DNA of 64,000 nucleotides. Origin: Lasiosphaeris hirsuta (lineage: Eukaryota > Ascomycota > Sordariomycetes > Sordariales > Lasiosphaeriaceae). This document shows positions 14,447-64,000 of this stretch, piece by piece. The notes beneath the pieces are model-generated. The model saw only the letters and a program-made list of their open reading frames with translations, was not told the origin of the DNA and did no database searches. Position 1 is the first letter of the stretch. Every line of letters starts with the position of its first letter. The stretch spans positions 992,001 through 1,056,000 of the forward strand of contig JAUKUA010000006.1 of assembly GCA_030549175.1 (NCBI GenBank). The letters run 5' to 3'. The position numbers and the translations under genes are program-made.

Positions 14447-16466
14447 ATCATGCTTGGGAGAAAATCTTTTTGGAAAGAGTTGTGAAAATACCCCTGGGTT
14501 TGGATCGGTGTATCCGTAGTTGTAGCGTAAAGCGAAGTCAGGGCTGGGACATAGAGTTTTGGCGGCGCCGAGGTAAAGTGGCGTTTATGCATTTGTAATG
14601 TTGGCATGTTGTTGGAGATTTTCGACTCACTCGTACTTGGCAAGCCAGCGCGTTATTATTATTAAGACATCTAATTACTCAGCTCTTCTCTGATCCATCA
14701 AGCAAAACGCATAGCTGGACACTCCTATCACAGGATTACCCGGAACGCCTGGGAACCTACCTATGCATTAACTGCAAGCAGCCCAAGTTTACCGGGAGCG
14801 GCTATCTGCCGGGGGCATATGGATGGCGTAGGGTCCGTCCGCACATAAGCTGGACCCAGCCGTCAAATGTTTACTTGTCAGCTTACCCCTGAAATGTGGG
14901 GGCAGTTGGACAGGCATGGATGGTCAGCCCCCTAAAAAGGAGGGTCTGTCTAGGCAATGGAGCAAAAACACATACAACACCAGGGGTTCGCTGGTCGTCA
15001 GCGACCCAGCTACTAGTCTGGCCCTCACTGGCTTATCTTTTGGAGAGCGGACGGGATCCCGAGTTTTGCCATGAGTCCTCCTATGTACAAAGTATACCGG
15101 ACATGGAAGCTCGGGGGTCCAGAAAACAGGATATAAAGCCTGGAAAATATTACAGCTAAGCGTGCCGAGGTCTGTTGGCTCTACAAGCTCTATCTTCACC
15201 ACCACCTGCCCAAGATATAATCCTACTCTGAGATATAGTCTCCATCCTGATCGCTGAGTTGCTTCTCGACTTCTTCTTCGACTACCACGAACCGTTTCTC
15301 ATCTGAGGTTAATGCCGAAACTGCCGGGTGCCCCGGCCGAGCCAAGAGCGGCGGCTTGGGGACGGGTCCGGGTCAGCTCTTCCGTGTCATTCCGTCGGTT
15401 CCAGGCCAACCAGTCGCTTTGGCTCCTGCCTAAACTCCGAAGTATGCGCGCTGATGCCGTTCCGGGCTAGGCTCGCGCCTTTCGCCGTTATAGTCTGCTA
15501 TAGGATTGCCATTCCCGTTGCCGCGAGCACGCAGCTGCAGTTTGGCTCTTTTGTCCACACGGCCTATCCCCGATATCGCGCTAGCTGCGGGGGGGCGGGA
15601 TGCCATTCGCTGCGCCGCCACGACTGATCTCCAACAACCGCACACAACCGACCAACTCCTATTCCCGTGCCGTCCACTGACCCATTTTGAGCAAGAATTC
15701 GCCACTCACACAACCTATTACCTCACTCCTCTTTTTTTCTTGATTCGAAAGCAGTCGAACAAAACGGAAACGCCTTATCCCCTACCCCGAGGCAGATAGC
15801 GCCACTTGCTGATGGTGATAAATCCAACCCCGGGTAGGCGATGGATTGTAAGGACTTATTCTAGCAGTAGTGTTGGTAACTGGTAACACCGACACGATGC
15901 CTTCGGATTTTCTGCCGTGTGACGTCGACTAGTCCGAGCAACAGGACCCAATGGTTCGTCTCATGGATATCGGGACATGGGAATTCGGGGGCCCATGCGG
16001 AAGAGTAGCATCATGGGACATGCAAACTGCTAGCACTGGCGACGCCGAGTATCTCTTCTAGAAAATGCAGGCGCAGAGGGCGAAATCCGGAGGACGCCGC
16101 ATCCCAAGCGGGGACCCACGGCCATGTCATGCCGAGCAGGGTGGTAGTGCTAGCGGTCTTGGTAGCAAGCAGTCAGGGCCGCCTTGCGGCAAGGTTTCTT
16201 CCTTCGAAAAGGGAATATGAAATGTCCTGCTTCCCCACGTTTGGTGGGATGCTGGTGGATATCGCAAGGAAATAACACGAAAAGGAAACCCCATTCAACC
16301 ATGGTTGCCCTTTCCCTGACGACCCCCTCCTATCGTCATCGCATATTCTGGGTTGCTCAACTCAACCCATCAAACGTCGATTTACCGGTAGAACAATAAT
16401 ATACAGTTTTCAATACACAGTTTTCACACTCGTATCATCAGTTCTAGACTTATACCCCATAAAGTC
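14447..16466. other. Gene-poor stretch between two MFS genes
   Basis: Two kilobases without a frame longer than about 100 codons, and none with recognisable content. It presumably holds the 3' UTR of the upstream transporter and the promoter of the next one. No repeats, tRNA or snoRNA signals were found by eye. Confidence 0.5.
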
Positions 16467-58534: not shown

Positions 58535-60625
58535 ATGTCCCACCCGAGCCGAGGCCTTGGGCTTCAGCTGCTCCTGAGGACTGTGATAGTCGCCATGCTG
58601 CTTGTTGCGCCACACGCCGTACGCGGCCAGTTCGCATCTCCCCATGGGGCTGCCAACCTGACAACGATTGCTTCACCGCTTGATCCGGACATCAAAATTG
58701 CATACAAGGTGCCCAGTGGTGCCTGCAAGACCGCATTCGACACGCAACAGCAATACACGGGCTGGGTCACTGTTCCTGGCGAGTTCCCGACTAACCTCTT
58801 TTTCTGGTTCGTCGCCAGTCGAGAGCCTACCTCAGCGCTGACGATATGGCTCAATGGCGGACCCGGCGCAAGTTCCATGTTTGGCTTCTTCCTGGAGACG
58901 GGACCTTGCGAGGTGGTTGAGCGAGGCGCCAACCAACTCGAGACAGCTGCGAGGGAATGGGGATGGGACCGGGCTTCTAACATGCTCTTCATCGACCAGG
59001 TAGGACTGCCAGCCCACTCATTGCTTTGTTGATTCTGACCTTGGCAGCCGAACCAAGTGGGATTTTCGTATGACGTGCCAACTAATGGATCATTGGACTA
59101 CGTGCTGGGAGACATCATGACACCCCCGAGACTCCTCCCTGAGGACCGCCATCTACACACCTTTCTCAACGGCACTTTCTCTTCGCAGAATGTCAATAGT
59201 ACGGCCAACTCTACTGGAATTGCTGCTGTCGCTATCTGGCACATGCTGCAGGGCTTTCTAAGTGCCTTTCCACAATACAACCCGCCAAACAACAGCGCAC
59301 TCGGTATCAACCTGTTCGCCGAAAGTTATGGCGGCAAGTATGCTCCCGCCTTTGCTGAGGTGTGGGAGGATCAGAATCAAATTCGTCAAAACAGTAGCTT
59401 GGCAAACTCGACCTTAGACATCAACCTGGTATCTCTAGGCCTCATCAATGGTTGTGTCGACGATAGGATCGAGGGCGCCCACCTCGCCGACATGGCCATC
59501 AACAATACCTATGGTCTACAGCTCATATCGCCTGTCCGCGCCAAGATGGTCAACGGGTCGTTCTACGAGCGAGGGGGCTGCCAAGACATGGTCACCCGGT
59601 GCCGTACACAAAGCTACCTGCTCGACAACGGGTTCCACACAGCCGTGGACGACATCGACGATCTCTGCAGACAGGCCATGGCCGCATGCAACAGTCTCCT
59701 CGATGCCTACTCCGAGACTGGGCGCAGCTTCTACGATATCGCCCACCAGACACCCGAGTCCTTCCCGCCCAGTTACTACATCGAGTACCTCAACAAGCGC
59801 TCCGTCCAGGACGCCATCGGCTCCGTCGTCAACTACACCGACACCAGCAAGACTGTCTACAATGCCTTCCTGTCGACCGGCGACTGGGTACGCAGCCCGA
59901 TGGTCCCCAAGCTCGCGACCCTCCTCGCGCGCGGCGTACGTATCGGTCTTGTCTATGGCGACCGCGACTACATCTGCAACTGGCTCGGCGGCGAAGCCGT
60001 CTCCCTTTCCATCGCCTCCACCCTCGGCGGCGTCTACGGAGCCTCATTTCCCACCGCGGGCTACGCGCCCATCATCGTCAACAACAGCTACATCGGCGGC
60101 GTCGTGCGGCAGTTTGGCAACCTCTCCTTCTCGCGCATCTACCAAGCCGGCCACTTCGTGCCGGCCTACCAGCCCGAGACGGCCTTCCAGGTCTTCGCGC
60201 GCATCATCACCGGCACATCGCTCAGCACGGGTGCCATCGTCAACCTGACGAGCTACAACACCACGGGCCCCGCCAATGCCACCGCCTCCTTTAGCCTGCC
60301 GTCAAGTCCCACGGCCACGTGCTACGTCCGCGCCCTGGACAGCTCTTGTCCCCAGGACACGGTTCAGAGCATCCTCAATGGAAAGGGTGTCGTTATTAAC
60401 GGCGCGTGGTATCCCGCGTCGAGTGACTGGCCTGGCGCCACCCTGACGAGTTCCAACTCCGGCGGGACGCCACCGAGTCCGACGAGCACTCCGACTCTGA
60501 CAGGACTGTTTACTGCCACAGCGACACCACAAACGGATGGTGCTCTGCGCTTATCAGCTCCAACGATACAGTTGGGAGTAATTATAGGGAGTTTCTTTGC
60601 GGTAAAAATCCTTGGGGTAATTTGA
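58535..60625 (+). CDS. Secreted serine carboxypeptidase, S10 family, probable GPI anchor
   Basis: Two exons (58535-58999 and 59048-60625; 48-bp intron) give 680 residues. A signal peptide (LLLRTVIVAMLLVAPHAVRG) is followed by the mature enzyme. S10 motifs are LTIWLNGGPGASSMFG (oxyanion region), NMLFIDQ joined to PNQVGFSYDV, the nucleophile in LFAESYGGKYAPAF (about residue 247), the Asp region GDRDYICNWLGGEA and the His in QAGHFVPAYQPE. Many N-x-S/T sites suggest glycosylation. The C-terminus is Ser/Thr/Pro-rich and ends in a hydrophobic stretch (LGVIIGSFFAVKILGVI) after a small-residue region, as in GPI-anchored proteins. The role is removal of C-terminal residues from extracellular or wall proteins. 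Confidence 0.93.
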
Positions 60626-61081
60626 CACAGCAGCGTCTTTTTGGGAGTTTGGAAGGGTAAAAGGCAAATCAGGACAAATATCATGGATGAGAAGATGTAT
60701 CACAATCGAGCTACCAGGAAATAATTAATAAACCGGCACAAACATAGGAGCAGAATTACCAACTCAAAGTAATGAATAATGTCTTTATTTAGACACCCCG
60801 AGCACACAAGACTTCGAAGTAATGATAAAAATATATGTTCTGTATATACGCACAAAATGCTTGCGCTGCTTCACTGCTGCGCTGGGTCCTCAAAGACGAA
60901 GTGCTCTGCGGCATATCACACGGTGGAGGGACTATTGTCAAGCCTACGTGCCGAAAACTTACCGCAGGGTATTGGTAACCCGTGTTGATTAATGGCGTGT
61001 GAAAGAGCGAAACTACTAGACTTGGCAATGTTAGCCTATGATCATCCACGCTCGTGAAGAGTGCAAAAGTTGTGGGGGTTT

Positions 61082-61176
61082 GACTTTGTCAGACAGGTGC
61101 CTGGTCAAAGACAAGTATCATCAAAGCGTAAAGCTATGTAGACCGTCGTGATAAAATTGTAATCATCATCAAAGTC
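61082..61176 (-). ncRNA. Box C/D snoRNA 1, 25S rRNA guide (snR69-like)
   Basis: On the minus strand the RNA begins with GACTTTG (61176-61170), then box C ATGATGA (61169-61163), a C' box TTGATGA (61124-61118), box D CTGA (61092-61089) and CAAAGTC (61088-61082). The two flanks form a perfect 7-bp terminal stem. The element complementary to 61139-61151 (rRNA-sense TAGACCGTCGTGA) pairs 13 bases with the conserved 25S segment UUUAGACCGUCGUGAGACAG. It is followed directly by a degenerate D' (CATA, 61138-61135). The plus-5 position pairs with the first C of GACC, which I take to be near yeast C2948, the snR69 target. No target is evident for the box D side. Confidence 0.9.
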
Positions 61177-61325
61177 GGGGGAGAGGAAGAAAATGGGAGT
61201 GCGCTTACTGTTGCCATGTGAATAATTGGCGAGAAAAGTGATGTGCGAAGCCATCTGATGAAATCTGCAAGAGTTAATTAACATCGCTTTCTAAGTCAGA
61301 ACCGACAAAATTATGATGTGGGGAG

Positions 61326-61401
61326 AGAATCAGGAATGACTGTGTCTTCCTCGCCGGAGCTCTGACATATGCTTGTCTTTAATTGTCAAATCATCATGTT
61401 G
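61326..61401 (-). ncRNA. Box C/D snoRNA 2, 18S Am28 guide (snR74-like)
   Basis: Box C ATGATGA lies at 61397-61391 and box D CTGA at 61333-61330 on the minus strand. The element opposite 61366-61378 is complementary over 13 bases to CAUAUGCUUGUCU near the 5' end of 18S rRNA. With the degenerate D' box CAGA at 61364-61361, the fifth base upstream of D' (61369) pairs with the second A of CAUAUG. That base is A28 in yeast numbering, the target of snR74. No strong terminal stem is visible. Confidence 0.85.
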
Positions 61402-61560
61402 TGTTGGGTGGTATGGAGGGAAGAAAAGCTTCGGCACATACCACACTCAACATAGTTTACCGAGGCTCTGCGTGCAAAACCATGAAGACGAAAAATCTAA
61501 CTTCACAAGGTCAGCTCAAGTTCGCTGAAAGGGTATTCAGATGAGGTGCGTGTTGCTTTT

Positions 61561-61648
61561 GGTGTCAGATTGGCATGAATGGTAGGGAAATAGGTTGTCT
61601 GCATCGGGAATCCCGGATAAGACTCGTCATCTTGTAATCATCATATGG
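61561..61648 (-). ncRNA. Box C/D snoRNA 3, 25S rRNA guide
   Basis: Box C ATGATGA is at 61644-61638 and box D CTGA at 61568-61565 on the minus strand. The box D side (rRNA-sense GCATGAATGG, 61573-61582) matches 10 bases of 25S GACGCGCAUGAAUGGAUUAACG. The D' side (rRNA-sense CTCGTCATCT, 61623-61632) matches 10 bases of GCCUCGUCAUCUAAUUAG, which lies some 20 bases upstream in the same 25S region. Yeast guides for this region include snR76 and snR47. The exact methylated base is uncertain because the plus-5 positions do not fall on the sites I remember. Confidence 0.75.
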
Positions 61649-61789
61649 TAGTGCTTGTGCAAGTGTTGTTGGTACTCACTGCCCAGGCGGTTGACGGCGG
61701 ATCCATGCATGTGATGTTGATCTGCCAGACTCTTGAGGGTTAGCGCACAAGGCCCACAAAATGCGATGATGCAGAGGGACAATGGATGC

Positions 61790-61882
61790 TAAATCAGTGG
61801 ACGAGGTTTTCTAGGCCTGTCACAGAATGGCATATCTGCTCATAATAATAAAATCGGAGCCCAGTGCCGTTTCATCAGGGAA
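61790..61882 (-). ncRNA. Box C/D snoRNA 4, target uncertain
   Basis: Box C is CTGATGA (61878-61872) and box D is CTGA (61797-61794) on the minus strand, 74 bases apart inside the third intron. A 9-base element GCACTGGGC upstream of a CCGA D'-like box could pair with GCCCAGUGC of 25S rRNA (the CUGCCCAGUGCUCUGAAUGUC region), but the match is short. The 14 bases before box D show no target I recognise. The call rests mainly on position in the intron series. Confidence 0.65.
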
Positions 61883-62027
61883 GCGTGTGGGATTGGAGGA
61901 GAGAAGAGACCTACCAGAATAAAGCCACCGCTACCGACAGAAGACGTATCAAAAATCTAGAAAGATCTGAACGGTAGGTCAGCATGTGAATGCAGTCATT
62001 GGTTTGAGATGCATGAGGTGAGAGGGG

Positions 62028-62113
62028 ATAATCAGAAACAGCCATTGTTGTCTTCAGTATAAAATCAGTCGGTAATTCCAACTTGCCGAAGCAAAAATTG
62101 AATCATCACGTTG
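62028..62113 (-). ncRNA. Box C/D snoRNA 5, 18S Um578 guide (snR77-like)
   Basis: Box C is GTGATGA (62109-62103), D' is a perfect CTGA (62068-62065) and box D is CTGA (62035-62032), all on the minus strand. The element upstream of D' (rRNA-sense CGGTAATTCCA, 62070-62080) pairs 11 bases with the universally conserved 18S sequence GCGGUAAUUCCAG. The fifth base from D' (62073) pairs with the U immediately after GCGG, which is U578 in yeast numbering, the snR77 target. This is the strongest functional match in the cluster. Confidence 0.88.
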
Positions 62114-62347
62114 TGTTGGTGCTGGGCGCAAAAACTGATCAAACTGACCTCCAGATTTCGAGACCCCTTGGACTTGGAGAATACCATCACCCCGAGAGCC
62201 ATCACCGTTTAACACCCCAGCGGACTCCCTGTGTTCTCCGCCATCCTCCAATCGGAAGAGGGCAGCGGATGTTGGAGAGCAAACTAGAAACTTTTATACG
62301 CGTTAGCTGGGGCCCAAAACCAGAAGGTCGGAAAGTGCAAGATAATT

Positions 62348-62448
62348 GGCAGCTGTCATGTTCAGACTGACGTTACAATTCAGTTTCATATCAATAAAGA
62401 TCAAAGACTCTAGTTTGCGGTTTGTGTGGTGTCATCAGGCTAGCTGCC
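62348..62448 (-). ncRNA. Box C/D snoRNA 6, target unknown
   Basis: Box C CTGATGA (62438-62432), D' CTGA (62383-62380) and box D CTGA (62365-62362) lie on the minus strand within the first intron. GGCAGCT (62448-62442 read on minus) and AGCTGCC (62354-62348) form a 7-bp external stem. Neither the sequence before D' (rRNA-sense TTTCATATCAATAAAG) nor that before D (ACTGACGTTACAATT) matches an rRNA segment I can recall. Confidence 0.75.
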
Positions 62449-62483
62449 TGTTTTGGGGTGCGAGGGAGAGGAGATGTCTTACC

Positions 62484-62827
62484 AGAGGGAGTTGCCAACT
62501 ATGATGGTTGATGGTGAGAGAGGAAAGTTGGAGAAGGAAAAAAAATCGAGACGAGGTTTTGAAGCTGTAGAAATGTGGGGCGAGCAAAAACTCCACTTGG
62601 GACTTTTGTGGAGTACGGACGTACAGCCCTTGTGTGCCCCTCCTCTGCCCATGACACAAGTGCGACACGTGCAGACGCCTCAGTCTCGCGTTGGCAGTGT
62701 TTCGACACCGCCCACCAACAAACCACAGCGACGCGCCTGCCTCATTTCTCGCTGCGTCGCTGTTTCTTCTTCTCAACAACAGCAACAACAACAGCGATTT
62801 AGAGATTGCCGACTTGCATCACTCACC
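62484..62827. promoter_or_regulatory. Divergent promoter, snoRNA host gene and Fpg glycosylase
   Basis: At most about 340 bp contain the first exon and promoter of the snoRNA host gene (minus) and the leader of the glycosylase gene (plus). GACACAAGTGCGACACGTGCAG (62650-62675, an E-box-like CACGTG) is the only notable motif. Assignment of start sites needs RNA data. Confidence 0.45.
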
Positions 62828-64000
62828 ATGCCTGAGATTGCCGAGAGTTTGTTTAGTAAAATAGCATTGAGTATCGAGATATTCGCTAACATGACGTGTA
62901 GTTGCTCGAATCGTCCACTATTTGCGCCTCCACCTAGTGGGGAAAACCATCAAGACTGCATCGGCCATCGAGGATACCAATGTCTTTGGCAAGGTTGGAA
63001 CCACAGGCGTTGAGGTCGCCGAGGCCTTGAATGGCAAAAAGGTCGTCTCGGCTGGGAACCAAGGGAAATACTTTTGGTTTGAGACCCAGCGTGATGCCGA
63101 ATAGAAGCCTTGACTGATTCCGCCCAGGATTGTGCTCAGCAAACCTCCACATCTGGTTATGCATTTTGGCATGACGGGTATGTCTCGTGGCCCTGTTGTT
63201 CTATGATATTATGTGCCATCTGACTTTGCCCTACAGGCTGGATCCATATTAAAGGCGAACGGACAGCGTACACCAACTACTACAACAAGTTGAAGGCGGA
63301 CGAGGCGGACGCCTGGCCCCCAAAGTATTGGAAGTTTCAGCTGAAGACTGATGATGCAGTTGAACTTGCATTCACCGACCCCCGGCGCTTTAGTCGTGTT
63401 CGCCTCGTCAACTGCGATGGGAAAAGTATCAGACAAAACACACCACTCGTGGAGAACGGGCCGGACCCCGTCGTCGATACTGATGTCTTCACCAAGGCCT
63501 TTCTCAGTCAAAAGATGCGCTCACGACATGTGCCAATTAAGGCCCTCCTTCTTGACCAGGCTGTCATCAGCGGCATTGGCAACTGGGTCGGCGATGAGGT
63601 TCTCTTTCAAGCAAAGCTCCATCCGGAACAATACTGCAATGAATTCAGCGATGAACAGATCACAAAACTATACGGAGCAATCCTATATGTTTGCCAGTTA
63701 GCAGTTGACAAGCTGGGGGACTCTGATCAGTTTCCAAAAGACTGGGTATTCCACTATCGATGGGGGAAGGGTACAAAGGGGCCAGGACATCTACCAAGCG
63801 GCGAGAAGCTAGCCTTTCTGACTGTGGGAGGAAGAACCAGTTGCTATGCCCCGGGTCTCCAGAAAAAGACTGGAAGCGTTGTATCAGGCGTGAAAGAGGA
63901 GGTCGCCGACTCTGACCAGGAGGTGTCAAAACCGAAGAAGCCATCCAAGTCGAAAGCGACAGCAAAAAAGGCCGAGAGCAACGCAGAGCCCAAAATGAAG
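62828..64000 (+). CDS. Fpg/MutM-type DNA glycosylase (3' end outside window)
   Basis: Four exons are visible (62828-62846, 62902-63076, 63128-63177, 63237 to beyond 64000), giving 336 codons before the edge. The 19-nt first exon encodes MPEIAE, with the catalytic N-terminal Pro (after Met removal) and Glu of the Fpg/Nei superfamily; the join gives IARIVHYLRLHLVGKTI. Further motifs are GKVGTTGVEVAEALNGKKV, AGNQGKYFW joined to IVLSKPPHLVMHFGMTG, WPPKYWKF and the FTDPRRFSRVRL strand. IKALLLDQAVISGIGNWVGDEVLF is the H2TH region; a C-terminal basic Lys-rich tail begins near 63880. The zinc finger of bacterial Fpg is not seen, as in plant and fungal forms. It removes oxidised bases such as formamidopyrimidines and acts as an AP lyase. 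Two donors are unusual (GTTTGT, GTTTGA). Confidence 0.93.

Follow-up and report, generated by a model that had tools for sequence, protein, structure and literature searches.

We identify in the window, the 64,000-nucleotide stretch of DNA analysed here, a non-coding snoRNA host gene on the minus strand (60770..62560), which with a probability of about 0.95 is a Pol II gene corresponding to the fungal snoRNA gene cluster I, with six introns that each release one box C/D snoRNA. Both ends are assumed, 62560 being the limit proposed in an earlier note on this DNA; an AATAAA at 60789 lies near the assumed 3' end. From the sequence we establish the anatomy of the cluster, the family identity of its snoRNAs and their complementarity to a presumed yeast rRNA sequence. 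From known biology, we infer its transcription, splicing, trimming and methylation functions as follows: Pol II would transcribe the gene from the minus strand, divergently from a gene for an Fpg-type DNA glycosylase; splicing would free six introns of 177-199 nt; and the debranched introns would be trimmed by exonucleases, each yielding a single box C/D snoRNP. Together, these snoRNPs would guide 2'-O-methylation of 18S A28 and U578, of 25S C2197, G2288, U2421 and C2959, and perhaps of 25S A876, and the host exons would carry no recognisable protein.

The six introns, all on the minus strand and with predicted lengths in the above range (n=6), are located at 62284..62482 (199 nt; GTAAGA..CTAAC..TAG), 61967..62148 (182 nt; GTCAGT..CTGAC..CAG), 61722..61914 (193 nt; GTAGGT..CTAAC..CAG), 61497..61679 (183 nt; GTGAGT..CTGAC..TAG), 61265..61441 (177 nt; GTATGT..CTGAC..CAG) and 61016..61208 (193 nt; GTAAGC..CTAAC..TAG). 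All six are canonical and hold one snoRNA each, as in UHG-type hosts. The earlier note had described a regular series of branch sites and acceptors, and a CTRAC followed by a YAG is indeed found downstream of box D in every one of the six; the branch lies 15-22 nt ahead of the AG in five of them and 34 nt ahead of it in intron 5, where an alternative branch site (TTAAC at 61277) lies nearer to the AG. Five of the donors proposed in that note (62482, 61914, 61679, 61441 and 61208) are exact, and the sixth, 62184 (GTATTC), was set aside: it lies 76 nt before the TGATGA, as against 40 nt for a GTCAGT at 62148. The latter is probably the true second donor, since its spacing to box C is then like that of the other five (36-45 nt in all six introns).

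All six RNAs have a RUGAUGA-like box C and a CUGA box D with a start-to-start distance of 63-80 nt, as against about 60-90 nt expected of a box C/D snoRNA and the 60-80 bases claimed before, and in two of them the TGATGA is preceded by a C. A perfect 7-bp terminal stem had also been reported for one RNA; it belongs to the first, in which it is set 3 nt before box C and 7 nt after box D, and the flanks of the other five offer at best 2-5 contiguous pairs. An ATGA just after box D of this first RNA, which would bring the stem closer, was dropped as a candidate D box, as it cannot place A876 at position 5; the CTGA at 62365 was kept because it alone does so.

A composite pattern requiring donor, box C, box D, CTRAC and YAG in this order was run over both strands of the window. 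It returned seven matches, which correspond to the six introns, with the C box of intron 6 (TGATGATGA) being counted twice, and it revealed no further unit on either strand. Dinucleotide shuffles of the 2-kb region (n=2000) gave a mean of 0.0045 matches (maximum 2) and shuffles of one 64-kb strand (n=60) a mean of 0.05 (maximum 1). The pattern was tuned after sight of the sequence; its first version, which barred a C before TGATGA, gave four matches against a shuffle mean of 0.03 and a maximum of 1 (n=200). We conclude that, at the level of sequence, the six intron-snoRNA units are real. An alternative would be that the snoRNAs are cut by an endonuclease from an unspliced polycistron, as in S. 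cerevisiae, with the splice-like motifs being due to chance. The gene order, which is the same as that of the yeast cluster according to PMC3596301, would fit such a scheme, but donor, CTRAC and acceptor recur at regular distances in six of six units, in the face of the 0.0045 matches per 2 kb from shuffling, and the same paper describes the cluster as all intronic in the Euascomycetes examined; we therefore regard a polycistron as very improbable.

The identity of the individual RNAs was examined with Rfam. Above the curated cut-offs, the whole window has five matches, namely four snoRNAs, all of them at the host gene, and one 5S rRNA. The intron 1 RNA (62361..62441, minus strand, as are the others) is a putative snR78/72 hybrid that matches snR78 with 30.2 bits, below the gathering cut-off of 48. 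Intron 2 contains a snR77-type RNA (62030..62113; Afu_300, 50.0 bits, above gathering; snoR77Y, 38.2 bits, below), intron 3 a snR76-type RNA (61792..61882; Afu_513, 76.5 bits, above; snR76, 33 bits, below), intron 4 a snR75-type RNA (61563..61646; snR75, 66.6 bits, above), intron 5 a snR74/SNORD27-type RNA (61328..61400; SNORD27, 29.6 bits, below the cut-off of 52) and intron 6 a snR73-type RNA (61087..61173; snR73, 40.2 bits, above). A permissive scan limited to positions 60000-63500 further recovered TtnuCD28 (27.8 bits, below cut-off), which overlaps the snR74-type RNA, as well as sR53 (16.0 bits) and sR17 (15.8 bits), which fall outside the six RNAs and were judged to be chance matches. 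Read along the minus strand, the Rfam snoRNA matches follow one another as snR78-77-76-75-74-73, and the members so identified, four above and two below gathering, stand in the order given for cluster I in PMC3596301. These family models are here a proxy for the conservation of boxes and guides in related species.

To what extent these RNAs could guide rRNA modification was judged by their antisense elements. In the surrounding genome assembly (44.4 Mb in 14 contigs), zero matches were obtained with a LSU primer pattern, a SSU pattern, the 5.8S family (for which control genomes were positive in 9 of 14) and a 182-nt presumed LSU query, run without a positive control; the LSU primer also had no match in viral contigs. 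The rDNA array was probably left out of the assembly. As no 18S, 5.8S or 25S rRNA was found there, the guides were compared with what we take to be the S. cerevisiae rRNA, in three pieces totalling 2607 bases, with A28, U578, C2197, G2288, U2421, C2959 and A876 presumably being the yeast numbers of the target sites. Duplex lengths count contiguous Watson-Crick pairs only, against this presumed rRNA. On this measure the D' guide of the snR78/72 RNA pairs over 12 bp at the LSU Um2421 site and its D guide (62362-62381, minus strand) over only 7 contiguous bp at the LSU Am876 site. The snR77-type guide pairs over 11 bp at SSU Um578, the snR76-type over 9 bp at LSU Cm2197, the snR75-type over 10 bp at LSU Gm2288, with a second 10-bp rRNA complementarity 12 nt further on, the snR74-type over 13 bp at SSU Am28 and the snR73-type over 13 bp at LSU Cm2959.

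Over the approximately 2.6 kb of presumed rRNA, five of the six RNAs have their one longest antisense match at the expected site, and in snR75 the match there is tied with its second one nearby. Antisense elements for the expected sites, previously claimed for four RNAs, are present in all six on the presumed rRNA, two of them not being significant by length alone: the 9-bp match of snR76 compares with a shuffle mean of 8.6, and the 10-bp match of snR75 was reached in 34 of 200 shuffles. The 11-bp match of snR77 is weak by the same standard (8 of 200 shuffles), and the snR73 guide has a further 12-bp match elsewhere in 25S rRNA, which illustrates the level attained by chance. The type of base opposite guide position 5, upstream of box D or D', agrees in seven of seven guides with the sites U2383, U575, C2159, G2250, A28, C2917 and A856 of the N. 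crassa table in PMC2780460. This check is partly circular because in five of the seven guides a degenerate D' box (TTGA, CCGA, CTTA, CAGA and CATA) was hand-picked with the expected site in mind, and it has full force for two guides only, those at snR77 D' and snR78/72 D (CTGA). The same table lists duplexes of 12, 10, 13, 10, 12, 13 and 13 bp for the snR78, 72, 77, 76, 75, 74 and 73 sites, as against 12, 7, 11, 9, 10, 13 and 13 bp here, counted as Watson-Crick pairs with the presumed yeast rRNA. Given the five hand-picked boxes and these lower counts, our confidence in the host-gene interpretation is slightly reduced.

The short snR72-type guide, with 7 contiguous pairs only, and the two RNAs below the Rfam cut-offs might also be taken as signs of a decayed and unexpressed copy of the cluster. 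We give this hardly any credence, in that boxes and splice sites are present in every one of the six units, six guides pair over 9-13 bp and a pattern derived from the first RNA, the only part of the cluster so searched, matches the genome just once, at this very locus.

It appears that the snR72 guide is fused into the first RNA, in the manner reported for Euascomycetes: the snR78 guide, of 12 bp, is unambiguous, and a snR72-type element, limited to the 7 pairs, has the correct spacing to box D. A genome-wide search for a separate snR72 with the exact pattern TTTGCACGTCAG N0-4 CTGA gave zero matches, and the exact pattern GCACGTCAG N0-4 CTGA gave three, against nine for a reversed control pattern. 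None of the three GCACGTCAG loci has a Rfam match up to E 0.1, and two of the three lack a box-C-like motif in the 130 nt upstream. No convincing better guide for A876 was found elsewhere in the genome by these patterns, which are exact and would miss a diverged guide.

Further along the host transcript, a 57-nt intron without a snoRNA, overlooked in the earlier note, is possible but not established (60906..60962, minus strand; GTAAGT..CAG). It resembles in length the three introns of the Fpg-type glycosylase gene (51-59 nt), whose branch sites (CTAAC, TTGAC and CTGAC) lie 16-18 nt from the end; unlike these, its own branch candidates are weak, being a TTGAC that starts 36 nt from the end or a TGAT at 13 nt. 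The position just downstream of snR73 is the place that snR72 occupies in the yeast or ancestral order. One could envisage this seventh intron as the remnant of a deleted snR72 intron, and the A876 guide of the snR78/72 RNA as decayed to 7 bp, in a lineage losing 25S Am876 methylation. We consider this scenario unlikely: the duplex counts of the other guides are also shorter than in the N. crassa table, by 0-2 bp, which weakens the case for decay, and these generally short counts together with the hand-picked D' boxes lower the odds of a loss of Am876. Only two details merit follow-up, namely the weak Am876 guide and the stub intron.

As regards coding content, a transcript model was built with the assumed ends 62560 and 60770. 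With six introns its internal exons are 42-135 nt in length and its longest ATG frame is 90 aa; with seven introns the longest frame falls to 71 aa. The 90-aa frame might point to a protein-coding host with snoRNA-bearing introns. However, this frame, the only one searched, has zero candidates sharing three words among 5.8 billion proteins, and two unspliced ORFs on the 5' side of the gene have no Pfam match, in a comparison limited to these two out of a set that also includes the plus-strand ORF 62083-62370. In N. crassa, the hosts of clusters I-V likewise yield RNAs with short ORFs only, according to PMC2780460, and a protein-coding host seems to us highly unlikely. On the search of the longest frame, the exons contain no conserved protein, in line with a UHG-type host and with the earlier claim that the stretch has no protein frame. 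The broader claim of a UHG-like non-coding host is supported by the Rfam matches, the rRNA complementarity, the gene order and the lack of a recognisable coding frame, which jointly point in this direction.

The predicted host gene is flanked by two genes on the plus strand. To its left is a S10 serine carboxypeptidase frame that ends at 60625, and to its right the Fpg-type DNA glycosylase gene with its ATG at 62828, the best named relatives of which, among the best 120 of 1658 matches, are from a Chaetomium species (78%) and Thermothielavioides (76%); the DNA is accordingly probably that of an ascomycete of the Sordariales, the order to which these genera belong. The host gene and the glycosylase gene point away from each other, and about 270 bp separate this ATG from the assumed 5' limit at 62560; given this arrangement, the two may share a promoter.

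In animals, the UHG and gas5 host genes carry one C/D snoRNA per intron and have non-coding exons, which is the same layout with a different set of snoRNAs. The S. cerevisiae snR78-snR72 polycistron has the same order (snR78-77-76-75-74-73) and target sites, but the cluster in the window is intronic and no separate snR72 was seen in it. The earlier proposal of a counterpart to the yeast snR72-snR78 cluster is supported by Rfam, guides and order, with the qualification that the cluster corresponds to seven yeast genes only on the view that snR72 has been merged into snR78. The yeast cluster produces unspliced primary transcripts (PMC3596301). The novelty implied before does not stand, as such clusters have been published for N. 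crassa (PMC2780460) and for Euascomycetes (PMC3596301). The former describes conserved yeast clusters in N. crassa as UHG/gas5-like host genes with spliced products detected by RT-PCR. By its account, the hosts of clusters I-V resemble UHG and carry no ORFs beyond short ones, and cluster I is alternatively spliced. Its table lists CD5, a double guide that does the work of both snR78 and snR72 of yeast, CD24 (snR77), CD12 (snR76), CD7 (snR75), CD21 (snR74) and CD31 (snR73), all six intronic and on chromosome VI; we infer that they make up the N. crassa cluster I. The gene in the window would share with it a UHG-like host, short ORFs, six homologous intronic snoRNAs and, apparently, the double snR78/snR72 guide. 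With the cluster I of the fungal survey (PMC3596301) it shares the order, the all-intronic state and, apparently, the snR78/72 fusion, the latter two of which are reported there for all Euascomycetes examined. Among the species listed in the survey are Podospora, Chaetomium globosum and Neurospora crassa, and the window is probably from another species.

The gene is an ordinary fungal snoRNA host gene, of a kind already known and now seen in a further species, and the earlier note read it correctly in its main points. The 7-bp guide of snR72 type, as against 10 bp in the N. crassa table, and the stub intron may be new, judged from a literature search aimed at such clusters. The analysis annotates one non-coding gene together with its six snoRNAs, all of which would escape gene finding based on proteins, and extends the published account of intronic cluster evolution in fungi by one species, with no general view being altered.

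Finally, the genome contains at least 47 matches to 5S rRNA, dispersed over several contigs. The one in the window (14969-15086, minus strand) is divergent, with 41.7 bits against 54.9-92.5 for the other 46 listed. In an alignment with eight canonical copies it agrees at 106 of 120 columns, and nine of the 14 differing columns are concentrated in the first 22; this match is predicted to be a pseudogene or a variant 5S.
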